IMG/VR virus record: IMGVR_UViG_3300021138_000174 | Location: 1-23,580 of that record | Strand: one strand, 5' to 3' | DNA length: 23,580 nt | DNA from: a virus | In this document: one piece after another, positions 12,001 to 23,580 of the stretch | Numbering within the stretch: position 1 is the first letter of the stretch | Layout: each line of letters opens with the position of its first letter | Program-made: the position numbers and the translations under genes | The notes under the pieces: model-generated | Databases searched by the model: none | Told to the model about the DNA's origin: nothing | Seen by the model: the letters and a program-made list of their open reading frames with translations, nothing else

Positions 12001-12602
12001 AGAACTGCGCTCCCCTTAGTTGCTGTCCAAGTAGTGGTTAACGAAGAAACTCCGTAATTAGGAACTGTGGCCGTATAGTTATATCCAGAAGCAGGATCTT
12101 CCGCAGCTGCAGTTACCGGAAAGGTGACTTGTGGAGAGGCTACGTATCTTGGTACTGGTACTGAGTTAGCGTTTACATTTGCGTCATAAGAACTCAGAGT
12201 TGAGTTAGCAACAGTTAAGCTTTGTCCAGCTATCTCTGAGTTAACGTTTCTATTTTCAGATGTGTTCTTAGCATTCGGATTGGTGTCACCAAGTTTATCT
12301 GTACCCAATTCTAGCTCGATCATGTACGGAGCTACTGTTCCACCAAAAACATGGTGGACTGACAATACTGTCCAGTAACCCGACATGTCATTAGGCAATC
12401 CATCTAAATAGATTGGATCATAAGGACGCAGGGTACACGTACCTACAACAGTCGCCTTAGCTCTGTAGGCATAACGATGTGTATCAGCTAGGTCGCTAGC
12501 GATGTACTTAGACTCGCTAAGAGAGGTTGCTACTTCATATACGTGGTGCTTCTTAAACTTAGCTGGAGAGCTAGATGAAGCACTTGAAAATCTACTCGCC
12601 AT
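11997..12602 (-). CDS. Baseplate hub, C-terminal half (gpD/gp27-like, split)
   Basis: The visible homology is to the last domain of late-control D-type hub proteins: ADTHRYAYRAKATVVGTCTLRPYDPIYLDGLPNDMSGYWTVLSVHHVF, corresponding to the 'leu-arg-pro-gly-asp ... gly-leu ... ser-gly-tyr ... val ... his' region. The N-terminal half of the hub is the preceding gene in another frame. I chose the ATG at 12602 because it overlaps the end of that gene (TTATGGCGAGTAG) with GAGGA about a dozen bases upstream; an earlier GTG at 12620 has no clear ribosome-binding site. From that ATG the product is about 201 aa. The remaining C-terminal half is Asn/Thr/Ser-rich and unassigned. It would form the trimeric hub on which the spike sits. 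Confidence 0.75.
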   Translation of the reverse strand: MASRFSSASSSSPAKFKKHHVYEVATSLSESKYIASDLADTHRYAYRAKATVVGTCTLRPYDPIYLDGLPNDMSGYWTVLSVHHVFGGTVAPYMIELELGTDKLGDTNPNAKNTSENRNVNSEIAGQSLTVANSTLSSYDANVNANSVPVPRYVASPQVTFPVTAAAEDPASGYNYTATVPNYGVSSLTTTWTATKGSAVL

Positions 12603-13434
12603 AAGTAAAGAAGTCCTCACTAGGGCTTAGGGATCCAAGATTAGGAACGCTGTAGTCCTTTGCAGCGTGGGTCGTAGCTATTGGTGTCGAGGTAATTGTT
12701 GAGGTACCAGTGATTACTCGGTTTACCTTTGCACCTAGATCTGGATTATCATCAGAGATCTCTGGTTCAAAGTAAAAGCAAGTACCATACATGCGGTTGT
12801 GGATACTTAATCCATCCTCATACTTAAAGTATGGGGCAGATGGCTTTTTTTCATTGTAGATTTTATCCTTAGATACAAATGTAAGGGTTGTGTTTTCAGC
12901 ACGTAAAGCAAAGCCGGCTTGTTTAGCTAACCTACGAAGAAGCTGCCAATCGCTTTGTCCTGCTTGAACTATCGACTCACGAATACGGGGATGGCGCTGG
13001 GTTACAGACTGCATGCCGTGCTTAGCTGCAATCTTAGAAACAACCCCATCAGCCGTGGTGTTCTTGTAAACCTTTTGATCAGTATTTTTTAGGAGGTACG
13101 AAGCGGAGACACAAGTAACAGTTGTAGAGTGAACCTCTGTACCTGAGCTGGGTTCTAGGGTATACACGTAACCATTAAACTTAGAAGAATTGGGTCCGCT
13201 TGTATAAACAAACTCAACAGGGTCCCCAGAGACTACGATCGTGCTATCTAGAAAGGGTTTTCCTTTAAACTCAAGAACTAAGATGTCATGAGAATCTATC
13301 TCTTGAAAAAGTTCAGCACCGATCAAGAGCAGCTCTGTAGAAGGTGTTTTGGGAAAGCTTACAGAGAAGCTAGAGTGTCTAGCCGTAGACTCCCATAGGA
13401 AGTTACTTTGAGGGGAGATAGTTGTATCAGCCAT
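12592..13434 (-). CDS. Baseplate hub, N-terminal half (late-control D / gp27-like)
   Basis: 280-aa protein matching the first two domains of D/gp27-type hub proteins. There is a beta-rich start with DILVLEFKGKPF and GDPVEFVYTSGPNSSKFNGYVYTLEP, then VTCVSASYLLKN, the TADGVVSKIAAKHGM segment, and the hallmark QAGQSDWQLLRRLAKQAGFALRAENTTLTFVSKD. The expected final barrel is missing here and is encoded by the next gene in a different frame. The start ATG at 13434 overlaps the LysM-like gene by 8 bases. The hub forms a trimeric ring between tail tube and spike. Natural division into two polypeptides, rather than decay, is suggested by the clean start/stop overlap, but a sequencing frameshift cannot be excluded from sequence alone. 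Confidence 0.85.
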   Translation of the reverse strand: MADTTISPQSNFLWESTARHSSFSVSFPKTPSTELLLIGAELFQEIDSHDILVLEFKGKPFLDSTIVVSGDPVEFVYTSGPNSSKFNGYVYTLEPSSGTEVHSTTVTCVSASYLLKNTDQKVYKNTTADGVVSKIAAKHGMQSVTQRHPRIRESIVQAGQSDWQLLRRLAKQAGFALRAENTTLTFVSKDKIYNEKKPSAPYFKYEDGLSIHNRMYGTCFYFEPEISDDNPDLGAKVNRVITGTSTITSTPIATTHAAKDYSVPNLGSLSPSEDFFTYGE

Positions 13435-13714
13435 TAGGAATCCTAATAACTGTTCCAGGAATAATGTCCCATGGGTCTGTAATCTCTGGATTTAAATCCA
13501 TGATCTCCCACCAGTATGATGAGCTGCGTATTGCTCCAGAGTTTTGAGCAAGGTTACCTAATGTATCTCCGTCTTCCCAAGGATACTCAACATATGATGC
13601 GCTGAACTTGGTAGGCCAGTTTCTGTATACAGATATGTCTGGAGAAATAGTTACTGCATTTACTACTTGAAGGATCGGTCCGTCGTAATATCTAGAGAGT
13701 CTGCTTATGCTCAT
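13427..13714 (-). CDS. LysM-like baseplate protein (T4 gp53 / P2 gpX type)
   Basis: 95 aa. Residues about 40-94 have the LysM arrangement: a first strand and DGDTLGNLA turn, a helix with SSYWWEIMDLNPEI, and a closing strand IIPGTVIRIP. In contractile tails such small LysM proteins (T4 gp53, P2 gpX) are structural parts of the inner baseplate rather than wall-degrading enzymes. The N-terminal 35 residues probably mediate assembly. It begins with a TAATG overlap on the 595-aa gene and runs 8 bases into the hub gene, consistent with coupled production of hub components. Confidence 0.85.
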   Translation of the reverse strand: MSISRLSRYYDGPILQVVNAVTISPDISVYRNWPTKFSASYVEYPWEDGDTLGNLAQNSGAIRSSSYWWEIMDLNPEITDPWDIIPGTVIRIPNG

Positions 13715-15501
13715 TACTTCTTACCCTTCACTGAAGCCTTAGTTGTAGCAACCTTTGGAACAACTGCATTGGCTGTAGCAGCTGCAGTAGTTGCATCGGT
13801 TGATCCAAATACAGGAATACGCATAGCTTGAATATCTACCGTAGTTAACATAGGGACCATGTTTGCTGTAAACATAACGTGGTTAACATTTATAGAGCTA
13901 AGAGAGATCTTGTAACGAAGGTTGTCATGGAATCTAATCCAACATGGGATACCCGTGATATATCCAAAGTCTGAGCTTTTATCATTCATGGTCAATAACT
14001 CGCCTGAAGCAGCTTGCGGATCACCGTTAAGCAGTCTGTATAAGAACTCTAGGTCGTATTCTGTTCCACGATTGATTAAACCGGCAACCTCTGTAGGTGT
14101 AAGAGTTCTAGGATAGTTCTTTGAATAAGAACCGGTTATTCCTGAAAGCTCTGTCATATCTGCAATTCGGTTTAAGTAAAGAGTAAAGCTGACTGTGGTA
14201 TTACCACCAATAGTATTGGCTGGATCTGCAGATGCTTGGGTCCAGTCAATTGGACTAGTAACAGTAGTGTTGTAAGAAATAGTTGTAGGGTTATAAGCAA
14301 ACCTAAACTTATAGGCATTGGGGCTTTGAGACTTCCAGTTGATATTGTTTGGATCAGAGAAGAAGTATCCTAAATTATTGTTTAGATCAGCATAGCCAGC
14401 AAATCCAGTTAAACGCTTTGTAAGCGGCACATCTCTAGTTAAAAAATGATTAGGAGGATTAGTAATGAACTTATCATCCATTGTATTATTGGCATAGTTA
14501 TTTATATTGGGGTTTGTTGTAGTGGTTCCAGCAGAACTAGGTCCGGTGGGATTTGTAGCGGGGCTAGGGCTACAGTTAAGCTGAGATGTAATATAGGCTT
14601 TAGCTGCTTTAAATGAGGAACCAGCATGATTAAGGCTTACTAACTCAGAGTTAGGGTTAAGGGTAGTTGGGCTTGAGAGCTTGTTTCCATATCCATCCCA
14701 AGCATCTACGTAAAAGTTATAGAAACTATTTATAGGTGGGGTAGTAGAGTACTCATACCGCATAGTAAGCCAACGCTTATTGCAAGGATCGTACCCACCA
14801 ATACCTCCATACATAGCTAAAGCATCGAGGACTTCTTGAGGAGCTTGTCCGGTATTCTTTCCACCTGCAGAAAAGGTTACTGGCTTTGGGGTGTAGAAAA
14901 GCTGAGACGTTGGAACATCAATATTGCTATTAGTGCTATTTTCATCAACATAAGTATTAGCTTTTAATACAACACCCACATCAGGAATTCCAATGTAACC
15001 GGTTGCATTAGGAAGGGGAACTACCTCTATATAAAACGCATCACCATGAAATGTGCTGCGGTATGCACCACGTTGAAGAGTTGCTGTAGGGTCTACCGGG
15101 ATAGCGGTAGAGGAAAGATCATCGTTTCCATGCACTGTATTAACAGCGTAGATCTTTGCTACTTTTTTTAATCCGGCAATCCAGGTGTCAAGGCTTTCCC
15201 CAGACGTATTTGGTATGGAAATAACATCATTAGTAAGAGAGGTTCCGTTAGTTGCCAGATCGTTCATCTGTGAGGTTGTTAAAGCAGTCGTTTGATTTGG
15301 GTATGTAATGCCGCTCCAAACACGGATGACATACATTACATACTGCCCGTTGTTTACAGTTCCATTAGTTAATGGCAACCATCCGCCATTAGATCCAAAG
15401 TACTTAAACGCAGGGTTGGAGGAAGTAATGGGGGTAACCGTAATAGCCGGGTCACTAACAAACGCTTCAATAGTATAAAAGGCTTTTGTATCGTATGACA
15501 T
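13714..15501 (-). CDS. Large baseplate/tail protein of unknown family, 595 aa
   Basis: Not recognised as a named family. It sits between tape measure and LysM-like protein, both with one-base TAATG overlaps, which is where tube-end and hub adaptor proteins are usually found. Residues 1-320 are beta-rich with many Asn, Thr, Tyr and Ser, then comes a low-complexity Pro/Thr/Asn linker (about 312-345). The C-terminal part from about 380 has a more conserved look: YKFRFAYNPTTISYNT, TTVSFTLYLNRIADM, RGTEYDLEFLYRLLNG, GIPCWIRFHDNLRYKISLSSINVNHVMF, resembling tail proteins that precede LysM proteins in contractile tails. It ends in a Ala/Lys-rich tail. The N-terminal half may be a lineage-specific addition. 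Structural role confident; identity not. Confidence 0.72.
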   Translation of the reverse strand: MSYDTKAFYTIEAFVSDPAITVTPITSSNPAFKYFGSNGGWLPLTNGTVNNGQYVMYVIRVWSGITYPNQTTALTTSQMNDLATNGTSLTNDVISIPNTSGESLDTWIAGLKKVAKIYAVNTVHGNDDLSSTAIPVDPTATLQRGAYRSTFHGDAFYIEVVPLPNATGYIGIPDVGVVLKANTYVDENSTNSNIDVPTSQLFYTPKPVTFSAGGKNTGQAPQEVLDALAMYGGIGGYDPCNKRWLTMRYEYSTTPPINSFYNFYVDAWDGYGNKLSSPTTLNPNSELVSLNHAGSSFKAAKAYITSQLNCSPSPATNPTGPSSAGTTTTNPNINNYANNTMDDKFITNPPNHFLTRDVPLTKRLTGFAGYADLNNNLGYFFSDPNNINWKSQSPNAYKFRFAYNPTTISYNTTVTSPIDWTQASADPANTIGGNTTVSFTLYLNRIADMTELSGITGSYSKNYPRTLTPTEVAGLINRGTEYDLEFLYRLLNGDPQAASGELLTMNDKSSDFGYITGIPCWIRFHDNLRYKISLSSINVNHVMFTANMVPMLTTVDIQAMRIPVFGSTDATTAAATANAVVPKVATTKASVKGKK

Positions 15502-18404
15502 TAGACGCTCGCAATTCCCTTACGTCGTAGCTGCTGATGCAGCTGCCTGTTAAATTCATTCACCATATCGTTAGCACCCTGAACGCTCGCCGTTGCAATA
15601 TTTACATTCATCTGAACTTTAATGTTTACCTGCTGATTAGCATTAAAGGATGTGCTTGTAGGCATTCCATACGCACCCTTAGATGCACCCACTTCAGCAA
15701 GAGACATGCTTGGAGCAGAACTGCCGCCCACACCGTATCCATCTGACTTAGCTGTTAGCTGAGCGTCATAAAGGTATTTAGAGAACTCTCCGCCGGTATA
15801 GGTAGACCAGGCATTCCAATTAGTTCCGTGGTTACTCTTATCCCAAGCAGCTTTAATATTATACGCTGGGTTTTGAAGTCTACTTGCGTCTCTATCTGGA
15901 TCGTTCCATTTCTTCCAATCCTTTAAAGAACGAATCTGGAATAAGCCAACGCTTGGACCCCACTTGCTATCTTCAAGCTTTACATCACCAATAGCATTTG
16001 GTCGACCTTGAGACTCTGCAAGTGAAACAGCAAATGCAGTAGAAAGGGCTTTTCCACGAAATCCCTGTGCATACAGCATCCTCATGTATGCCCCTCGGCT
16101 GCCTCCAGGCATGCCCTTTACATCTCCAGGTACAAGATTGATGGTGCTATCAATCAATGGGGTTCCATCTGTTGCAGAAAGCTTTGAGCTGTTACCCAAG
16201 GTATTTAACATGTCGCTGTAGTTGAGTGGGTTACCTGCCATCATCGCACTAGCTAGCTGCGATGGTAGTCCTACAGAGTTTAAGATTCCTGGATCAGAGA
16301 TAGTGTCAATACTGACTGATTTATTATTAGCACCCTTAGCTGGGGCACCCATGGCTGTAGGAAGCGGTGGTGAAAACTTAGAGCTTCCTGCTCCAATATA
16401 TTTAGATGGATCAACACGGCCCTGTGCACCGACGCCACCGTTATCACGAAGTTCAAAGTGAAGATGCGGACCAGTTGAATTACCAGCTCCAGGGGTTCCT
16501 GGCTTACCACCAGAGAGTCCGATCTCTTCACCCTTACGAATCTTCTGTCCAGAGTGAACCTTGACCTGAGAAAGGTGGGCATAGAGAGTTGATTTCTTAC
16601 CGTGGGTAATGATTACGTAATTTCCGTAATCCTTATCTAGGCCTGTATAGGAAACAACGCCATCAGCCGCAGCATGTACTGGTGTGCGGGGTTGAACGGC
16701 GTAATCAATACCTGTATGTGAAGTCCACTTAGATGGGTTGTGGGGATCACGGCGCTTACCGAAGCCTGAGCTTACGGCGTGCTTATCTGTGGGGTAGTTC
16801 ATCTCTGGGCTGCCACTAGATGCGGCTGTACCCATTCCTGGGGCTGCATTACCGCCCTGGAATAATCCCTGGATTAGACCCGCACCTGCTCCTAAAACGG
16901 CTCCTATGGCCGTTCCAGGGCCCGGAAGGATGCTTCCTATGGAAGCGCCTATAAGAGCGTCTATGCCCATGTCAGCGGCCGTGTTACCGACCTTTTTGAC
17001 TGTCTTATTCTTGGCTAATCCAGTGTTATCCAGACCGCCCTTAAGAAGACTTGCCAAGGCAGCCAAGCCGGCTAGTCCTCCGGCTTTACCTAAACGTCCC
17101 GCAATTCCAGCCCCGCCCTTGGCTGTACCGACTGTGTATCCCTGACCTGGAAAGTTTTCTGCAGCAGCAATCGGATTGTTCTGAGAACTAAGCATCTGTG
17201 ATAGAGCACGGTTTTGAAGAGCTCCATAACCAAAGCTCATACCTGCCCCAGCTAATGTGGAGATGGTTGCTCCAGGACCACCAAGTCCTGGGAAGGTTTC
17301 AAGAACGCCTTTAAGCTTTCCAAATAGATCGACAACTCCAGGAAGGGTATTGGCTAATCCAGCCATGCCGTTATTAATCGAGGCAGCTGTGTTAAGGGAG
17401 GTGTTGTATCCAGATACAAGTCCGCCGCTCATTGCGGTGGTTACATTAGATGTACTTGTATTGTAATTAAACTGAGCGGCTAAAGGACTTCCTGCCCCAA
17501 CCTTCATTAGTCCAAGAGCAGATGTAGATCCGCTTAGATCTGATTTACTTAAACCAGAACCCTTTGATGCACGAGCAACAATACCTGCTTGAATGCTCGC
17601 CATGAGGTCTGGGTTGCCGCCAGCAATCTGTGCAATAGTGTTATAGCCCTTGCTGTTAGGGTTGTAAACCATCTGAGCTTGATCAAGGGTTACAGTCTTA
17701 CCACTATATAAAAAGTTATATACACCATTGATGATGTCGTTGATTGGCTTAAGAGAGCCATCAGGATTACGAGCGGTCACACCAACTCGTAAGAAGTTCA
17801 TGCCGTTAATTCCGGAGAGTCCAGCAGCTACTTGCTGATTGCTTCCTCCAGTAAGTGCGCTAAGTCCACCTACAGCCCCCATAATATTTTTGGAGCTCAT
17901 GGTGTTGGCTAAATAACCACCACTATATGCAGCAGTGGCCATCGCTTGAATAGGGCCGGTAGCACTAGTGGCTCCGTTACCTACGGCTTTATTAGCCGCT
18001 TGCATTGCCTGCATAGCAGACATGCCACTAAGGCCTGCAAATGTATCTGCAGTCATACGCTGGGTTACAGCGTTCATCGTTGAAGGCATCATGCCCATAC
18101 CGATGCTACCTACTGTTGCTACAGCGGCAATTCCACCTGCAACCTTTTCAGCAGTTGTATATGGGACATTCGGCATAGTTCCCATGCCGATGTTTCCACT
18201 ACCAGTGTTGTTACCATTTTTACCAACACTGCCTAGGGACTTAGCAATATTGTTTGCAGACTTTTCCATCTGCAACATCAGCTTTAAGCTGACATTAAAG
18301 CCCTTGTTTACTTTATTAAAGAAAGAGTCAAGACCAGCGTTTGAGCCCAGGGCAAGTGCACCCCCCGAGTCGGAAGGCATCTGCATATTGCCGTATGCGG
18401 CCAT
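15501..18404 (-). CDS. Tape-measure protein with M23 peptidase and transglycosylase domains
   Basis: 967 aa, the longest gene of the tail core, following the frameshifted chaperone as tape measures do. Residues 1-520 are Gly/Ala/Met/Asn-rich and helical, with hydrophobic glycine-rich stretches near 440-456 and 480-515 that could insert in the membrane. Residues about 535-665 form an M23 (LytM-type) zinc endopeptidase: HTGID with His563 and Asp567, YAHL with His610, and HLH with His647/His649. Residues about 770-880 are lysozyme-like: Glu797 in SLAESQGRPNA is the likely acid, followed by GLFQI (820-824). The two domains would cut peptide and glycan strands during DNA injection. About 145 nm would be the upper bound for tail length at 0.15 nm per residue, less for the folded domains. 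The TAATG start couples it to the chaperone extension. Confidence 0.93.
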   Translation of the reverse strand: MAAYGNMQMPSDSGGALALGSNAGLDSFFNKVNKGFNVSLKLMLQMEKSANNIAKSLGSVGKNGNNTGSGNIGMGTMPNVPYTTAEKVAGGIAAVATVGSIGMGMMPSTMNAVTQRMTADTFAGLSGMSAMQAMQAANKAVGNGATSATGPIQAMATAAYSGGYLANTMSSKNIMGAVGGLSALTGGSNQQVAAGLSGINGMNFLRVGVTARNPDGSLKPINDIINGVYNFLYSGKTVTLDQAQMVYNPNSKGYNTIAQIAGGNPDLMASIQAGIVARASKGSGLSKSDLSGSTSALGLMKVGAGSPLAAQFNYNTSTSNVTTAMSGGLVSGYNTSLNTAASINNGMAGLANTLPGVVDLFGKLKGVLETFPGLGGPGATISTLAGAGMSFGYGALQNRALSQMLSSQNNPIAAAENFPGQGYTVGTAKGGAGIAGRLGKAGGLAGLAALASLLKGGLDNTGLAKNKTVKKVGNTAADMGIDALIGASIGSILPGPGTAIGAVLGAGAGLIQGLFQGGNAAPGMGTAASSGSPEMNYPTDKHAVSSGFGKRRDPHNPSKWTSHTGIDYAVQPRTPVHAAADGVVSYTGLDKDYGNYVIITHGKKSTLYAHLSQVKVHSGQKIRKGEEIGLSGGKPGTPGAGNSTGPHLHFELRDNGGVGAQGRVDPSKYIGAGSSKFSPPLPTAMGAPAKGANNKSVSIDTISDPGILNSVGLPSQLASAMMAGNPLNYSDMLNTLGNSSKLSATDGTPLIDSTINLVPGDVKGMPGGSRGAYMRMLYAQGFRGKALSTAFAVSLAESQGRPNAIGDVKLEDSKWGPSVGLFQIRSLKDWKKWNDPDRDASRLQNPAYNIKAAWDKSNHGTNWNAWSTYTGGEFSKYLYDAQLTAKSDGYGVGGSSAPSMSLAEVGASKGAYGMPTSTSFNANQQVNIKVQMNVNIATASVQGANDMVNEFNRQLHQQLRRKGIASV

Positions 18405-18556
18405 TACTTCACCCTAGGTCTCTCTATGGCTTTGTTAATCCAAAGCATTCTTTCTCTGACAGAGAGATTGCGGATCTCAGTTAAAGTCCAACCAGGATAA
18501 TTCTGAGCCAGAATATCGTAGGTCTGGATTACTAGATCGTAATCAATCTCACTCTT
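18404..18556 (-). CDS. Tail-assembly chaperone frameshift extension (no own start)
   Basis: An ORF open from 18619 down to a TAA at 18406-18404 in the +1 (equally -2) frame relative to the chaperone gene. It encodes IDYDLVIQTYDILAQNYPGW followed by TLTEIRNLSVRERMLWINKA and a basic end. Between the frame's upstream stop (18622-18620) and this conserved-looking helical segment there is no ATG, GTG or TTG; the only in-frame ATG leaves 14 codons. Its stop overlaps the tape-measure ATG as TAATG. Together this is what a programmed frameshift product looks like: a short chaperone plus a longer fusion (about 318 aa) made at low level, as in lambda gpG/gpGT and P2 E/E+E'. The frameshift itself is inferred. 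Confidence 0.8.
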   Translation of the reverse strand, partial: KSEIDYDLVIQTYDILAQNYPGWTLTEIRNLSVRERMLWINKAIERPRVK

Positions 18557-18563
18557 GAAACAA
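18549..18563 (-). other. Probable programmed frameshift site
   Basis: The chaperone frame ends TTG TTT CAA GAG TGA (18563-18549). Slipping +1 from TTT (18560-18558) to TTC (18559-18557) keeps perfect tRNA-Phe pairing and continues AAG AGT GAG ATT GAT into the extension frame. Slippage at the stop codon itself, or a -2 shift as in phage Mu, would also reach it. No classical XXXYYYZ heptamer fits because the required shift is not -1. Confidence 0.5.
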
Positions 18564-19361
18564 CTCTGCCAACGTAAGTGGCATCGGGACCTCCGACCCG
18601 CAGAACTTACATGGCACTGTTACTTCGCTGAGTTGTGGACCTGGGTTGCGATCTGATATAGCCTTAAGGATATCCCGGCGGTCTTTGATACTGAGCTGAC
18701 GAACCTGCTCCGTATCCATGACAGGGAGACCATTAATGGTCTTAACGCAGCTCTTGAGTACGAGGGTGTCTAATTCAGCTGCGGTCTTATTGGATGAGTT
18801 TACTATAGCTTTCTGTGTAATACCGTTTGGAAGAGATACTTCTACCTCACCAATCTTGCACTTAAGAGTGAAAAGGCGATCACCGTCTAGCTTTTTAACC
18901 TTAACGTCTTTGTTAAGATCAATAGATACTTCTTGAACGTCTGAAGAACATGGGCAGATATTTCCTTCAAAATTAATCTCATCACCAAAGGTGACACGAC
19001 GAATCGTAAGGAGGATAAGCTCACGGTCTCCAGCTAGTAACATATCGAGTGTATCCCGATCTACTGCTTTTTCACCAAGCTTTACTACTGCTCGTTCTAG
19101 GATGGCAAGGAGGGCTTTGCCTGTATCTCCAGCTTTTGCAATAGCTTCTTCATCTGCTCCGTTTAGTTCACGAACTTCTGCAGTTCCAATAAATCCATCA
19201 AATGGATCCATTAATCCTGCAGCCAACTCTACGTGAGTATCAGGAGGCGTCTCAACACGCTTCTTAGCGGGTTTAGCTACCGCCTCCTGAGCCTCTAATG
19301 CTTCTGCGACCATCTTATTCGCAAGTTGTGGATTATTAATTGCACTTACTTCGTTAGTCAT
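18549..19361 (-). CDS. Tail-assembly chaperone with four-cysteine zinc motif
   Basis: 270-aa protein between tail tube and tape measure, the fixed position of tail-assembly chaperones, which coat the tape measure during tube polymerisation. It has an acidic N-terminal region, then GFIGTAEVRELNGADEEAIAKA and a helical ILERAVVKLGEKAV...LLAGDRELILLTIRRVTFGDE. A Cys136-x-Cys138 pair and Cys251-x2-Cys254 (CKFCG) flank a central beta segment, so a split zinc site is likely. T4 gp26-type and related proteins share such features. AAGG precedes the ATG at 19361. A fraction of ribosomes probably shift near the end into the extension at 18556-18404. Confidence 0.8.
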   Translation of the reverse strand: MTNEVSAINNPQLANKMVAEALEAQEAVAKPAKKRVETPPDTHVELAAGLMDPFDGFIGTAEVRELNGADEEAIAKAGDTGKALLAILERAVVKLGEKAVDRDTLDMLLAGDRELILLTIRRVTFGDEINFEGNICPCSSDVQEVSIDLNKDVKVKKLDGDRLFTLKCKIGEVEVSLPNGITQKAIVNSSNKTAAELDTLVLKSCVKTINGLPVMDTEQVRQLSIKDRRDILKAISDRNPGPQLSEVTVPCKFCGSEVPMPLTLAELFQE

Positions 19362-19386
19362 ATTGTTTACCTTATCGTTTTAATGT

Positions 19387-20022
19387 TTAAGCTGAAGGAA
19401 GGGTCTGTGCTCCACCTGCAGTTGTATAGTCCTGAGCGTATGAAACGTCAAAGCCTTCATGAACAACCTGAATTTCTTCAACCATGAGGGTGTTAGCACC
19501 GGCATCAAGGTTGCTGTAGCTGAGGTTTGTGATCCATGCGTTATAGACTTTGAAGCGCAGTGATACATGCTGATCTGTTGGATTTCCAGCAACTCCTCCA
19601 TTAAGGTTAGTTGTGCCCTGTGGGTTAGGGTGGCTGAGTACTGCGATGTCAATTGTGCAACGGAAATCTGCGCCAATTCCTGTTGTAGCATCTCCACTGA
19701 GTACTGTAAACAAACGCTTCATCCACATTGGGTTTGCATCCTGTGCAAGCATTACACCCTTAGAAAAGCTAATAGGTGTAAAAGAAGTCTGACCAGGAAT
19801 CTGGTGGAAGTTCGTGTTATATCCACCTTCACGGTAAGCGATTGCTTCAGTAGCAATACTCAAACCAGAAGCTGATACGAATCCCATAGTTGCCCAGGCC
19901 TTATTTGCAGATGCCCATGTAGAGTCTTGTGCATGGGGGCTAAACGTAACCAAGAACTTAAAGTTACGAACTGGATCCGTAGCAAGTGTGCTAAACGGAT
20001 TAGTGATTGGACCGTTAGTCAT
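19387..20022 (-). CDS. Tail tube protein (T4 gp19-like)
   Basis: 211-aa protein directly after the sheath. Family features are VRNFKFLVTFSP at the start, FVSASGLSIATEAIAYREGG, and PGQTSFTPISFSKGV, the core strands of the gp19-type tube fold, then a C-terminal VYNAWITNLSYSNLDAGANTLMVEEIQVVHEGF. It forms stacked hexameric rings inside the sheath through which DNA passes. A strong AAGGAG ribosome-binding site ten bases before the ATG matches the high amount needed. Length is slightly above the common 140-170 aa; a Gly/Asn-rich loop near 145-165 (TTNLNGGVAGNP) accounts for part of this. Confidence 0.93.
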   Translation of the reverse strand: MTNGPITNPFSTLATDPVRNFKFLVTFSPHAQDSTWASANKAWATMGFVSASGLSIATEAIAYREGGYNTNFHQIPGQTSFTPISFSKGVMLAQDANPMWMKRLFTVLSGDATTGIGADFRCTIDIAVLSHPNPQGTTNLNGGVAGNPTDQHVSLRFKVYNAWITNLSYSNLDAGANTLMVEEIQVVHEGFDVSYAQDYTTAGGAQTLPSA

Positions 20023-20036
20023 TTTTAGTTATCTCC

Positions 20037-21593
20037 TTACGCCGTAGCGTTTCCGGTAAGTTGTCCCAACTTGATGACAACAAACTCTGCTGGGTATTCA
20101 ATAGCTACGCCTATTTCGACATTTACAATGCCGTTCTGGATATCTGCATCGCTGTTATTAGTAGCGTTACAAGTTACATAAAAGGCCTGGCTTGGATCTG
20201 TTCCACGAAGTCCACCCTGCTGCCAATATCCACGAAGGAAGGTAGAGAGTGAGGTTGTGATGCGTCCCCATAGAATTGAGTCATTATTCTCAAACAGAGC
20301 AAATGCGCTGCGCTGTTCAAGCTCTGTCTTCAAGTACATGATAGAACGACGAACGTTGATGTAGCGGTTAGATGTGGTGTTGTTCATGGTACGAGCGCCC
20401 ATGATTACGATTCCACTACCTGGGATCTGACGGATAGCATTGATTGGTTCTGTACCAGTATTCAATGTATCAAGGTCAGAGTTAGAAAGCTGGGTCTGTG
20501 TTGCAACAGCCAGTGCAATTCGGTTGCTGAATCCTGCTGGTGCTTTAAAGACACCACGTGCTGAATCGGTAGCAATGTACTGGCCGATTGCTGCAGCTCC
20601 AGGAGCTTGATTACGAAGTGCGCCACGAGCAGCCTTTGTTGTATCTGGAATACTGATCCAAGGATAGTAGAGGGCTGCAACTTCACCAGCAGAAGAACCT
20701 GCAAATGGTGATGTAGCTTTAAGGTCAGAAGCATACTGCTTAGCATCTGATACTGCAAGTCCTGATGGAACGTCACAGACTACAAAACAGTTTTCACGAC
20801 CGGCTGCATATGCAACAGCATCTGCCTGAAGCTGTAGAGACAATGTGCGATCTCCTGAGCTTCCACCTGAGGTGTACTGGTAAGCAGCCTGAGGAATGTT
20901 AAATACTAATGGATTCTGAATAGGATCAAAGTTAGTATAAACAGCCTGATAGTTAGCACGTGAAGGTGCTGATCCATCAAGACCACCTGTAAGTGCATGC
21001 TGTACTCCGTCAGCTGTAGGGTTGTTTCCTGGAGCAACTGTTGCAGAGTGCTCGTCAGTTACAACTACATACGCTGAAGATGCATTGATGTATGAGATTG
21101 CGTAGCGTGGATCAGTGCTTGACATTGAAAGATCAGTAAACTGCTCAATAAGAGTTGAAGTTCCACCGATCAATTCATATACGTAGAGAGCAAAACGACC
21201 AGCAGCACCGGTATTGATTACCTGAACTGAGAGTGAGTTGCCCCATGAACCAGCATTAGATGCAGTTACTAGAAGGGTTGACAAAGATGAGCTGTCTGTC
21301 AAGACAACTGATGAGGCTGCGGATCCTGAACCTAGGACACGCTGAACGTAAGCTTGGTTACCGCCATTAGCAAAAAAGTTATAGACAGCCCAAGTGGTTG
21401 GATAAGCATCTTGTACATCTCCGAAGCTATCAACAAACTTCTTCCATGAACGTACGAGTACTGGTGCTGAGGACTTTCCTGAAGGCAATGCTCCAAGGAA
21501 AGCGCCAACAGCAGAGCCATTGTCAGTTAGTTCAACTGTCTGGCTTACTGGCACTTCTTGTACAAAGACGCCGGGTCTACTAAATGTAGCCAT
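20037..21593 (-). CDS. Tail sheath protein
   Basis: 518-aa contractile sheath subunit. The N-terminus MATFSRPGVFVQEVPVSQTVEL and GAFLGALPSG are the classical sheath start. The C-terminal domain has NVRRSIMYLKTELEQRSAFALFENND, SLSTFLRGYWQQGGLRG and an ending VEIGVAIEYPAEFVVIKLGQLTG, the most conserved part of the family, which mediates subunit meshing. Middle residues (about 95-250) would be the surface-exposed variable domain. AAGGAG lies about ten bases before the ATG. The 55-base gap before it (21594-21648) contains a short TAGGTACCTA palindrome and no clear promoter. Confidence 0.97.
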   Translation of the reverse strand: MATFSRPGVFVQEVPVSQTVELTDNGSAVGAFLGALPSGKSSAPVLVRSWKKFVDSFGDVQDAYPTTWAVYNFFANGGNQAYVQRVLGSGSAASSVVLTDSSSLSTLLVTASNAGSWGNSLSVQVINTGAAGRFALYVYELIGGTSTLIEQFTDLSMSSTDPRYAISYINASSAYVVVTDEHSATVAPGNNPTADGVQHALTGGLDGSAPSRANYQAVYTNFDPIQNPLVFNIPQAAYQYTSGGSSGDRTLSLQLQADAVAYAAGRENCFVVCDVPSGLAVSDAKQYASDLKATSPFAGSSAGEVAALYYPWISIPDTTKAARGALRNQAPGAAAIGQYIATDSARGVFKAPAGFSNRIALAVATQTQLSNSDLDTLNTGTEPINAIRQIPGSGIVIMGARTMNNTTSNRYINVRRSIMYLKTELEQRSAFALFENNDSILWGRITTSLSTFLRGYWQQGGLRGTDPSQAFYVTCNATNNSDADIQNGIVNVEIGVAIEYPAEFVVIKLGQLTGNATA

Positions 21594-21648
21594 TCCGGTT
21601 TACTCCTTAGTTATAGTTGGTTTCTGTAGGTACCTAGTGGTGAGCGTT

Positions 21649-22233
21649 TTATGAACCGTATGTATGGTCTTGATAGTTAAACGTGATCTTGGGCGTTTGT
21701 GTAACTTCGTAGATTTCTGAGAAGACTTCTGGGAAGAGCTCAGAACTAATACGAATAGTATAGACGTTACTGAACAGTCTTTTATCCTGTTCTGTTCTAT
21801 CTCTTTTGGTGAAGCTCAAAACATCCAGACGACGGGCGGTCCCATCCTCAGGGATATATAGCTGACCAAATCTAAATGGCAGTCTTCCAGGACTGAAGAG
21901 CGCATTAATCATCGCCCGATCATGTCGTGGTTGACGGCAGTAGGTGGTGACCTGATAGTCAAGGTTTACTGGAATTGGTTCCCAAGTAGCTATAGGACCA
22001 GCTTGACCTTCTGGGGTATATGGCGTGGTTATATACCCACGCATGGCACGGTCAAAAGCTTCAGCAATTCCAATCAATTCAATGGTTATATATGGATATG
22101 ACTGCTGATGGATTTCTTTATCTGGCTGACCATAGAACACCGAAACAGGACGAGCCGAGTTTCCGGTATCAGAGACCGTAATCCCTGTTAGTAGGGCTTT
22201 AAGGGCAGCCTCTTCGTTTAATACAAATGGCAT
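21649..22233 (-). CDS. Neck / tail-terminator-like protein, 194 aa
   Basis: Protein of unknown family immediately before the sheath. It has a mixed layout: ALKALLTGITV helix, FYGQPDKEIHQQSYPYITIELIG, a central PIPVNLDYQVTTYCRQPRHDRAMINALF and a C-terminal NVYTIRISSELFP. The pattern 'short helix, YPYI(T/S)IE, then DYQVTTY...R..HD' resembles tail-completion or terminator proteins, and proteins of this place in myoviruses cap the tail at the neck. The start overlaps the previous stop (TAATG). No catalytic or metal motif is seen. Function is mostly from position. Confidence 0.7.
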   Translation of the reverse strand: MPFVLNEEAALKALLTGITVSDTGNSARPVSVFYGQPDKEIHQQSYPYITIELIGIAEAFDRAMRGYITTPYTPEGQAGPIATWEPIPVNLDYQVTTYCRQPRHDRAMINALFSPGRLPFRFGQLYIPEDGTARRLDVLSFTKRDRTEQDKRLFSNVYTIRISSELFPEVFSEIYEVTQTPKITFNYQDHTYGS

Positions 22234-22529
22234 TATGCAAGCCCCTTACCTTTAGCAGCTTTAGTAAAGTGATTAGCAATGTCGTCATAAGAAATGCTGC
22301 TCAGGGTATTCCTGATCATGGGATTAGCAGAAGTATCCTCACCACCAAGTTCCACGTGGTAGGCGTCGTCTGTAATACCTGTTACGGTAGGGACCATGTC
22401 CTCAAGGCTAAATCCCAGGTTCTTTGCATGCGGAATATTCAGGCTCTGTAGCTTGGCCTGTTGCTCTGCTTCAAAGTTTGAGATTGACTGCTGTAACGCT
22501 GCTATAAAATCGGATCTTGGTGATGTCAC
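22233..22529 (-). CDS. Hypothetical neck-region protein, 98 aa
   Basis: I do not recognise it. The N-terminal third is helical and Gln/Glu-rich (DFIAALQQSISNFEAEQQAK), the middle has DMVPTVTGITDDAYHVELGGE, and the C-terminus SYDDIANHFTKAAKGKGLA is again helical. The start is a GTG at 22529 overlapping the previous stop as GTGA; the stop overlaps the next ATG. Position between head and tail genes suggests a head-tail joining role or a virion-assembly factor. No motif decides. Confidence 0.72.
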   Translation of the reverse strand: MTSPRSDFIAALQQSISNFEAEQQAKLQSLNIPHAKNLGFSLEDMVPTVTGITDDAYHVELGGEDTSANPMIRNTLSSISYDDIANHFTKAAKGKGLA

Positions 22530-22684
22530 TTGCCACGCCTTGAAGCTAGGTATCCTGCAATTAACCCGCCAGCGATTTTAACGTCTGTCTTTTTAGGGTC
22601 AGCAGATCCCGTAACTCCACGGACAAATTCACGTGTGTCAGCATCGGACTCATTACGTAAGAGTCGTTGCACTAATAAGATCAT
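22526..22684 (-). CDS. Small hypothetical protein, 52 aa
   Basis: Begins MILLVQRLLRNESDADTREF and ends AGGLIAGYLASRRGK. The ATG at 22684 has an excellent ribosome-binding site (GGAGG, four bases upstream), and the stop overlaps the next gene's GTG, so it is very probably translated. The C-terminal IAGGLIAGYLA stretch is short and hydrophobic with glycine spacing and could contact a membrane or pack as a helix. It is the first gene after the terminator, so it heads the neck-tail transcription unit. Function unknown. Confidence 0.75.
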   Translation of the reverse strand: MILLVQRLLRNESDADTREFVRGVTGSADPKKTDVKIAGGLIAGYLASRRGK

Positions 22685-22757
22685 AAATCCTCCAGATGAA
22701 GGCGCAGGTACAGCAGCAGGGTTCCGGATTACTCCGGCGTCAAGTACAAGGATAAAT

Positions 22758-22781
22758 GAAAAAGCCCCACATAGTGGGGCT
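22758..22781 (-). terminator. Intrinsic terminator after the small-gene cluster
   Basis: Read on the minus strand, AGCCCCAC-TAT-GTGGGGCT (arms 22774-22781 and 22763-22770, 8 bp, 3-base loop) is followed at once by a T-run (22762-22759). It begins six bases after the stop of the 45-aa gene. The rest of the 22685-22786 gap holds a CCGGA-4-TCCGG inverted repeat (22724-22737) and a TTGACG without a good -10. Confidence 0.88.
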
Positions 22782-22786
22782 AATCC

Positions 22787-22924
22787 TTACTTCTTTTTCT
22801 TCTTCTTTACGGTCTTCTTGACCTTCTTGGCTAGTTTGGCATCGTTCTTTTCATCCTGCTCTTCAAAGGCTTTTCTTTGAGCTGGAGTCATGCCCTTTTC
22901 AAACTTACTATCCTTGTGAGCCAT
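22787..22924 (-). CDS. Lys-tailed basic microprotein, 45 aa
   Basis: From the ATG at 22924 the product runs MAHKDSKFEKGMTPAQRKAF, a charged helix EEQDEKNDAKLAKKVKK, and a terminal run of six Lys. The frame is open upstream to 23053 but that part overlaps the two Cys-rich ORFs and looks non-coding, so the later ATG, with GGGCGG upstream, is preferred. A very basic tail on a mixed-charge helix suggests nucleic-acid or acidic-protein binding. It is followed directly by the terminator. Function unknown. Confidence 0.65.
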   Translation of the reverse strand: MAHKDSKFEKGMTPAQRKAFEEQDEKNDAKLAKKVKKTVKKKKKK

Positions 22925-22973
22925 TAGATCCGCCCTTACCGCAGGTGCAGTTCTGACACTTGCACTCTGGCAT
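22908..22973 (-). CDS. Cys-rich microprotein, 21 aa, metallothionein-like motif
   Basis: Starts MPECKCQNCTCGKGG and stops at a TAG (22910-22908). Four Cys in a CxCxxCxC pattern within eight residues is a metallothionein-type metal cluster motif. Its ATG directly follows the TAA of the other Cys-rich ORF, and AAAGG lies upstream at workable spacing. The tail overlaps the start of the 45-aa gene by 17 bases. At 21 aa it could be chance, but two neighbouring Cys-rich ORFs in one polarity make that less likely. Confidence 0.5.
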   Translation of the reverse strand: MPECKCQNCTCGKGGSNGSQG

Positions 22974-23066
22974 TTACTTGCCTTTCTTAGTGGTTGGCTT
23001 AGAAGTCTTCTTGCAAGCACCCTTGCAATTAGGCTTTGAGCATCCACATCCACATGCTTTGCACAT
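22974..23066 (-). CDS. Cys/Lys-rich microprotein, 30 aa, metallothionein-like
   Basis: Starts MCKACGCGCSKPNCKGACKK and ends with a Lys/Thr tail. Six Cys in the first 18 residues (Cys2, 5, 7, 9, 14, 18; CxxCxCxC-x4-C-x3-C) with no aromatic residues except none, and about nine Lys, is the composition of small metallothioneins. GGGAGA lies seven bases before the ATG at 23066, and the stop of the acidic gene is three bases before that ATG, so expression is likely. Metal binding is inferred from Cys spacing; a Cys-rich structural zinc knuckle is an alternative. Confidence 0.65.
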   Translation of the reverse strand: MCKACGCGCSKPNCKGACKKTSKPTTKKGK

Positions 23067-23068
23067 AG

Positions 23069-23194
23069 TTATTCTCCCTGTTCGGTTGTTGGGGCTTCCT
23101 CTGCTGGAGCCTCTTCTGATGGTGTATCTAAGTCTAATACAAACTCTGGGTGAAGCCCGTCGTCTGTTGTAGCTGCGTCAATATCTGGCATCAT
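23069..23194 (-). CDS. Acidic microprotein, 41 aa
   Basis: Starts MMPDIDAATTDDGLHPEFVL and continues with a Glu/Pro/Ala-rich tail (SEEAPAEEAPTTEQGE). It has many Asp and Glu and no Lys or Arg, so it is strongly acidic and probably disordered. The ATG at 23194 overlaps the preceding stop (ATGA) with CAGG just upstream; the next in-frame ATG is at 23191. Acidic, disordered, Pro-rich short proteins near head genes sometimes act as scaffolds or charge partners of basic proteins; here that is only a suggestion, supported by the basic genes on either side. Confidence 0.65.
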   Translation of the reverse strand: MMPDIDAATTDDGLHPEFVLDLDTPSEEAPAEEAPTTEQGE

Positions 23195-23418
23195 CCTGTC
23201 TTTCTGTGAGTGGAGTGCCATTTCTTAGCACCCGCTATACCCTGCTGGGGGTTCTTTACCCGACCGTTACTTACCTCGGTTAGATTCATCTTCTTGTGTG
23301 AAGTTCCAGACTTTTCATCCGGATGGTTAAGCATAACGTCCCCGCCAGGCTTTTGTGTAACGACGTGCTTTTGACCCTGAATGGTAGCGGTCTTTTTACG
23401 AACTTTACTCTTTGGCAT
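23191..23418 (-). CDS. Basic hypothetical protein, 75 aa
   Basis: Begins MPKSKVRKKTATIQGQKHVV and ends GAKKWHSTHRKTG. Lys, Arg and His dominate, with few hydrophobic residues, so it is probably extended and nucleic-acid or polyanion binding. Its ATG at 23418 is preceded by AGGAT at good spacing, two bases after the stop of the partial gene at 23421, and its stop overlaps the acidic gene. Not recognised; a minor head protein or DNA-associated protein is possible from position. Confidence 0.72.
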   Translation of the reverse strand: MPKSKVRKKTATIQGQKHVVTQKPGGDVMLNHPDEKSGTSHKKMNLTEVSNGRVKNPQQGIAGAKKWHSTHRKTG

Positions 23419-23420
23419 AA

Positions 23421-23580
23421 TTATCCTACGTTATAAATAGTTAAGTTGGCTGATGGAGATGCTGGGCGAGTCGGGTTAGTACCAGCCGCTGTAGCAAGAA
23501 GTGACATTCCAGAAGCACCTGACCACCAATGAAATTGAATGTAATCATTTGGTACAACAGTAATTGGGGACTCAATGTTT
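23421..23580 (-). CDS. C-terminal end of an unidentified protein (partial)
   Basis: The last 52 codons of a gene that begins beyond the window edge, ending in TAA at 23423-23421. The fragment contains NDYIQFHWWSGASGMSLLATAAG and finishes PSANLTIYNVG. The alternating hydrophobic pattern suggests beta strands, as in virion surface or decoration proteins, and the location before neck genes fits the head module. Too short to identify. The window ends inside the gene, so the 5' end is at 23580 in this view only. Confidence 0.7.
   Translation of the reverse strand, partial: NIESPITVVPNDYIQFHWWSGASGMSLLATAAGTNPTRPASPSANLTIYNVG

Follow-up and report, generated by a model that had tools for sequence, protein, structure and literature searches.

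The stretch of viral DNA analysed here (23,580 nt, the window) carries near one end two short, cysteine-dense minus-strand genes, ORF A and ORF B. On that strand they are followed by a lysine-rich 45-aa ORF, by genes for proteins of 52, 98 and 194 aa and by the tail sheath gene. The features of the region are as follows:

20037–21593, minus strand: tail sheath (phrog_23, 2e-46).
21649–22233, minus strand: conserved 194-aa protein, probably a tail terminator; it has no PHROG match and served as the anchor.
22233–22529, minus strand: 98-aa protein, probably of tail-completion type, without PHROG match; LEYGTxxxPPxPALRxF-type proteins stand at the same place in relatives.
22526–22684, minus strand: 52-aa protein, the first gene past the terminator, with homologues in relative loci.
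22763–22781, minus strand: intrinsic-terminator-like hairpin that closes the microprotein array (hairpin scan).
22787–22924, minus strand: 45-aa Lys-rich microprotein (MAHKDSKFEKG...), sharing 17 nt with the end of ORF B, with homologues (p45) in many loci.
22908–22973, minus strand: ORF B, 21 aa, MPECKCQNCTCGKGGSNGSQG, from the ORF listing, with versions in relatives.
22974–23066, minus strand: ORF A, a 30-aa microprotein, MCKACGCGCSKPNCKGACKKTSKPTTKKGK, with an H1 head and a Lys-rich tail (ORF listing, conserved position and strand, pN/pS).
23046–23066, minus strand: codons 1–7 of ORF A, M-C-x-x-C-G-C, the N-terminus that is constant throughout the family and agrees in register with the HypB nickel site.
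23069–23221, minus strand: 50-aa acidic ORF upstream of ORF A (ORF listing), with a similar acidic ORF in locus L088.
23074–23079, minus strand: Shine-Dalgarno sequence of ORF A.
23191–23418, minus strand: 75-aa basic array microprotein of the HVVTQKPGGDVMLNH type, with homologues in relative loci.

Profile searches against PHROGs and Pfam placed a WhiB gene at 1328–1699 of the window. In PMC10202952 and PMC6802176, whiB serves as a marker of actinophages, and its presence here points to an actinobacterial host. Positions 12040–23580 are identical to locus L003, a part of a contig of 103,932 bases (G001) whose capsid protein belongs to phrog_1357 and shares 73% identity with its counterpart in Streptomyces phage LuckySocke.

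An earlier note on this DNA had described the two genes as adjacent ORFs of 30 and 21 codons, and both were found on the minus strand with the cysteine patterns that it gave: C2, C5, C7, C9, C14 and C18 in ORF A (CxxCxCxC-x4-C-x3-C) and C4, C6, C9 and C11 in ORF B (CxCxxCxC). As it had also noticed, the TAA of ORF A directly abuts the ATG of ORF B, in one frame. It had assigned a ribosome-binding site to each gene; that of ORF A is a good Shine-Dalgarno sequence (AGGGAG), whereas that of ORF B is a weaker AAAGG lying inside the end of ORF A. As only a single TAA separates the two ORFs (22973–22974), readthrough would yield one protein with 10 Cys.

The cysteine density of the pair is by itself a weak argument, being only mildly unusual: when the window was shuffled 300 times by a first-order Markov model, 25 of the shuffles had at least two short ORFs with at least four Cys and 18% Cys. 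An ORF with CxCxxCxC occurred in 5 of these 300 shuffles and an ORF starting MCxxCGC in none. The two ORFs are regarded as real because they are conserved, ORF A strongly and ORF B in a smaller sublineage, and not because they are Cys-dense.

Relatives of the window phage (lineage A) were fetched by the tail sheath, blind to the ORFs. The best 80 of 297 were kept (sheath identity 46–100%), and loci with less than 1950 nt upstream (35 of the 80) were dropped, leaving 45. One or more ATG-started ORFs beginning MCxxCxC precede the tail genes, in the same orientation, in 41 of these 45 loci (62 ORFs in all). No such ORF was found on the reverse strand upstream of the sheath in the 45 loci, nor on either strand in 541 kb of sequence downstream. 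Since these loci, like the capsid-selected ones described below, include near-duplicates, they were also counted as clusters at 95% DNA identity, and 27 of 29 sheath clusters were positive. In each of the two negative clusters (L026/L029/L030 and L028) one phage has the gene elsewhere in its contig, namely G011 for L030 and G013 for L028, where the ORF reads MCATCGCGKPKDKHG...; the L026 and L029 fragments gave no match. Thus ORF A keeps its place and strand before the neck and tail genes, in line with the earlier assignment of the pair to a phage virion region. Its conservation in diverged phages led us to reject a chance ORF, and ORF A is, by this comparison of sequences, a genuine phage gene.

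A scan with the H1-subtype motif gave at least 120 viral stretches. Among the matches listed, 107 of 118 new loci have a gene of the window phage's family beside the match, and one of the remaining 11 (L141) is plainly a chance ORF. The subtype is restricted to viruses: the same motif occurred in 24 stretches of a 257-Gb collection of cell genomes, and none of the 24 continued as SKPxCxGxC.

Selection on the head was estimated from 91 DNA variants among the H1 matches listed. The pN/pS ratio was 0.097 over the 19-codon head and 0.25 on the codons left free in the search, the second being the fairer value because the scan fixes seven residues. Eleven sheath-selected variants gave 0.098, and 0.28 on the free codons. 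In both this lineage and the second one (lineage B, below), Cys codons (TGT vs TGC) and Gly codons vary synonymously. Purifying selection, the lack of which had been named in advance as refuting the proposal, is therefore present, at a head pN/pS of about 0.1 (0.25 on free codons). The shuffles with two Cys-dense ORFs could still be taken to favour the view that the genes are chance ORFs, but the selection on ORF A and the conservation of such genes in both lineages leave it next to no probability.

Loci L002–L201 contain 181 unique short proteins starting MCxxCxC, of which at least one, that of L141, is spurious. Four main head types were recognized, MCKxCGCGCSKPxCxGxC, MCATCGC, MCxxCGCGKKKGxxGxGKG and MCAKCGCGCKxGKPAKGCKCxCATC, and they combine with a handful of exchanged tails, some of which are also present as separate ORFs. 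One tail type carries the sequence DxDxDGxLExSD, which it shares with EF-hand and dockerin loops (PF00404, PF00036; Dockerin_1 at E 0.017, under the cut-off); the loop is absent from ORF A of the window, however, and a sister of this tail lacks the acidic ligands. Within the array region, CxxCGC stands directly after the ATG in 44 of 47 unique in-frame cases, and two of the three others fit a separate upstream gene of 80–95 aa. A Shine-Dalgarno-like run precedes 42 of the 44 heads. In the sheath-selected sample, Gly6 is present in all 42 unique heads, the search not having demanded it, and 23 of the 42 have C2, C5 and C7 as their only Cys. The 44/47 and 23/42 counts indicate that the common feature is the N-terminal three-Cys motif and that the six Cys of ORF A are an elaboration of it.

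A scan for MCATCGC gave at least 120 stretches. The matches listed comprise 116 matches in 102 new loci, and 30 of them (29 loci) lack genes of the window phage's family. Of those 29 loci, 18 have a capsid gene about 1–2 kb upstream, in the same orientation. The capsid of this second lineage is phrog_1357, as in the window phage, but only 29% identical to the capsid protein of the latter. Lineage-B loci were fetched by the capsid protein alone, the best 80 of at least 600 being kept, and those with less than 2200 nt downstream (17 of the 80) were dropped, leaving 63. Downstream of the capsid gene, 56 of the 63 have an MCxxCxC ORF (46 of 49 clusters at 95% capsid DNA identity); the reverse strand gave none, nor did either strand in 389 kb of upstream sequence. 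All 54 unique lineage-B proteins have exactly three Cys, with Gly at residue 6 in 38 of them and Asn in the other 16.

Over the two marker-based samples, the family is present in 97 of 108 loci and in 73 of 78 clusters after dereplication. In terms of sequence it is defined by the N-terminal motif M-C2-x-x-C5-G6-C7, with Asn6 in some lineage-B members. Its genes share the coding strand of the head/neck gene blocks in which they lie, and those of the window's lineage belong to an array ending at a conserved hairpin. For the hairpin count, 40 of 176 loci were dropped because their sequence upstream of the anchor is shorter than 1300 nt, and a terminator-like hairpin was found between the array end and the 52-aa gene in 122 of the remaining 136 loci. 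The same scan gave 135 hairpins on the forward strand vs 83 on the reverse strand, such hairpins being partly symmetrical. The frequency of the hairpin (122/136) suggests that the array and the tail genes fall into separate transcription units, the first of which closes with the array.

Gene position alone would place the microproteins in the virion. The position of the lineage-B gene downstream of the major capsid gene, that of the lineage-A gene before the neck and tail genes, and tails ranging from Lys-rich to acidic are all consistent with structural microproteins, which Cys2, Cys5 and Cys7 would staple to capsid or neck proteins through disulfides or a metal, any handling of metal being incidental. 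A disulfide has no obvious need of the strict residue-2 position, which fits an amine ligand, and we hold this structural role to be possible but doubtful. The sheath-selected lineage-A proteins have a median charge of +12 and 32% Lys, and many of their array neighbours are also Lys-rich, as expected if a zinc-knuckle-like tip and a Lys-rich tail bound phage DNA or RNA in a nucleic-acid or regulatory role. However, lineage B retains the tip with tails of only 3–12% Lys that are often acidic, which makes such a role quite improbable.

The earlier note had classed both peptides as metallothionein-like. A buffer of this kind, in which one or two small Cys-rich peptides supply or protect the infected cell (Zn, Cu, Cd), draws on the shortness and Cys content of ORF A (6/30, 20%) and ORF B (4/21, 19%), above the roughly 15% taken as the lower bound for the class, and on the Cys density of the H1 and H4 heads and of a CTCGTCKSC element. 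In addition, the CxCxxCxC of ORF B resembles the N-terminal half of bacterial SmtA-type metallothioneins. The likeness to SmtA/BmtA proteins is limited to the small size and Cys-richness of the window subtype and to this ORF B motif. No metallothionein profile matched ORF A or ORF B in Pfam (E<=1), or ORF A in NCBIfam; one protein of a distant relative (L075) matched PF12749 at E 0.86, below the cut-off. CxC/CxxC clusters are not family-wide either, as three Cys are all that is present in the 23 lineage-A heads noted above and in every lineage-B protein; the Cys are fixed N-terminally rather than spread, and the genes sit within virion blocks. On the negative profiles and the three-Cys relatives we rejected membership in the metallothioneins, and a buffering role seems unlikely. 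The related claim that the peptides are metal chelators stands in part: probable metal ligands are present in the sequence, but their layout is the CxxCGC of HypB, whose characterised metal is nickel and not zinc.

According to the review PMC7055735, E. coli HypB has its high-affinity site in a CXXCGC at the N-terminus, where Cys2, Cys5, Cys7 and the N-terminal amine bind Ni(II) with subpicomolar affinity in a four-coordinate planar geometry. ORF A, which starts MCKACGC, has this CxxCGC from residue 2, and in the phage microproteins all four published ligands are in register at the extreme N-terminus. The 5' end of E. coli hypB, which we take to encode MCTTCGCG, was checked against 5426 E. coli genomes, and this start matched 5374 of them. 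As a control, the MCxxCGC pattern was looked for in 63 cell genomes (59 from a single order, plus four others) and gave 27 matches, 12 of them at the start of ORFs longer than 100 aa and the remainder in short ones. Nine of these 12 contain SSPGSGK and a tenth a similar P-loop, and for this reason 10 of the 12 were read as HypB. The phage proteins differ from HypB in being short and phage-encoded, in their variable non-HypB tails and in lacking the P-loop GTPase domain, for which the 30 aa of ORF A leave no room; none of the 116 MCATCGC matches listed lies in an ORF longer than 100 aa in a scan without length limit.

In favour of a HypB-like tip, the NCBIfam model HypB_prefix_1 (NF053667) matched 6 of 10 heads (best E 2.6e-4). 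Against it, all six matches fall below the curated cut-off of the model (best 22.3 bits vs 30), and ORF A of the window was not matched at E<=5. When 42 H1/H4 proteins were scanned, HypB matched five (best E 0.0091), and a calcium-binding family unrelated to HypB scored as well on one (E 0.0065). We therefore claim the same site layout and not homology. PMC7055735 describes the N-terminal site as peculiar to the HypB of E. coli, but the cell-genome control showed the same MCxxCGC start in other HypB proteins. Residue 6 is Asn in 16 of the 54 lineage-B proteins, and the AlphaFold models were not informative as to fold (ORF A, pLDDT 69.8, without secondary structure; the EF-tail relative L057, pLDDT 62). 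Foldseek, run on the L057 model, found no counterpart in the PDB, and the single match from a profile search of the PDB was at chance level (E 3.5). The motif was not found in five named relatives scanned whole (BRock, LuckySocke, FlowerPower, ct2KA10 and DSL-LC01) with the pattern fixed at CGC, CNC forms being looked for in the fetched stretches only. Searches of named phages by tblastn with three head types gave no match in two runs and only matches of E 2 or worse in a third. Finally, no NiSOD match was found in 16 phage contigs, in a search whose control was likewise without a match anywhere.

On balance, we think it rather probable that ORF A belongs to a large and unnamed family of late microproteins of the virion region, with a HypB-like metal tip and exchangeable tails, and that ORF B is an accessory. 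ORF A would be expressed late, and its initiator Met would be cleaved off, as initiator Met is removed before Cys. The free amine so exposed would join Cys2, Cys5 and Cys7 in a tight, planar binding site, resembling that of E. coli HypB, for Ni(II) or a soft metal like it. The strict position of Cys at residue 2 is what an amine ligand would require, and nickel as the metal of the tip is inferred from the analogy with HypB. In the window subtype, C9, C14 and C18 may provide a second thiolate group, or they could form a zinc or copper cluster instead. The Lys-rich tail of ORF A may anchor the protein to DNA or to the particle. As the tails differ and are exchanged between heads, the tip would be the working part and the tail would determine location. 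In some of these phages ORF B, a CxCxxCxC peptide, may likewise supply metal ligands. Should the tip bind nickel in the way of HypB, the family would represent a viral use of a chaperone-type metal site cut to seven residues. More speculatively, and with low confidence, diverse uncultured phages might carry, in or with the virion, a dedicated class of nickel-tipped microproteins with exchangeable tails, which would keep nickel from host enzymes or place a metal centre in the particle.

ORF B is, as far as its sequences tell, real but sporadic, and the evidence for it is smaller than for ORF A. Of 177 anchored loci, 157 of which extend 700 nt or more upstream, 15 carry CxCxxCxC on the coding strand; none carries it on the reverse strand. 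Four of the 15 (L001–L003 and L106) are the window's own sequence or identical in peptide. Close versions occur in L087/L110/L125, in L136 (inside a longer ORF) and in L162, and looser ones in L012/13/15/31 and in L017/L076. Four close DNA variants gave a pN/pS of 0.11 across ten codons, among them several that the search had fixed, and of 0.48 at the three codons between the Cys. The direct abutment of A and B is not universal, since 680 nt separate the start of A (upstream) from the B motif in L087, L110 and L125. In L087 this gap is filled by a 190-aa ORF and ORF B nevertheless keeps its adjoining Lys-rich ORF, with the same spacing in L110 and L125. The Lys-rich ORF of L093, L098, L119, L189, L193 and L200 carries a related element, CTCGKCKxCK, fused to its end.

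The family seems to be without a name as yet, and its members may escape gene callers, being so short. PHROGs gave no match at E<=1 for ORF A, ORF B or the scanned head variants, except for one lineage-B protein (E 0.13, outside the Cys motif), and none of the heads scanned matched a Pfam or NCBIfam family above cut-off. In the parts of the open-access literature covered, on metallothioneins of phages, prophages and viral metagenomes and on CXXCGC in phages, no description of the family was found, nor anything on DUF6321. DUF6321, DUF6496 and a CWxGYxQVGMK module are small basic microproteins neighbouring the family in the arrays of related phages, but they lack the N-terminal Cys tip. Of the three, DUF6321 and the CWxGY module are also found in other phages, named cyanophages among them. 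The CWxGYxQVGMK module is a free microprotein in phages of the window family, and in Actinomycetia phage DSL-LC01 (L226, 6701–7744) it lies within a 347-aa protein shortly after the portal gene.

Other observations concern the surroundings of the arrays. In L233 (G011, 87454–88957) the microprotein array lies away from the tail genes and adjoins an HNH-like ORF, and in L158 an ORF that we take to be DNA cytosine methyltransferase-like stands between the array and the neck genes. At −6806 to −5814 relative to the sheath, L004 encodes a 330-aa protein, presumably radical-SAM-like (CNSGCWFC), which adjoins glycosyltransferase-like and epimerase-like ORFs. A 384-aa protein of the fibre region with a very Cys-rich stretch is encoded in L003 at −6921 to −5767 relative to the sheath (G001, 40525–41679), and similar Cys-rich proteins are present in L012, L059 and L063.
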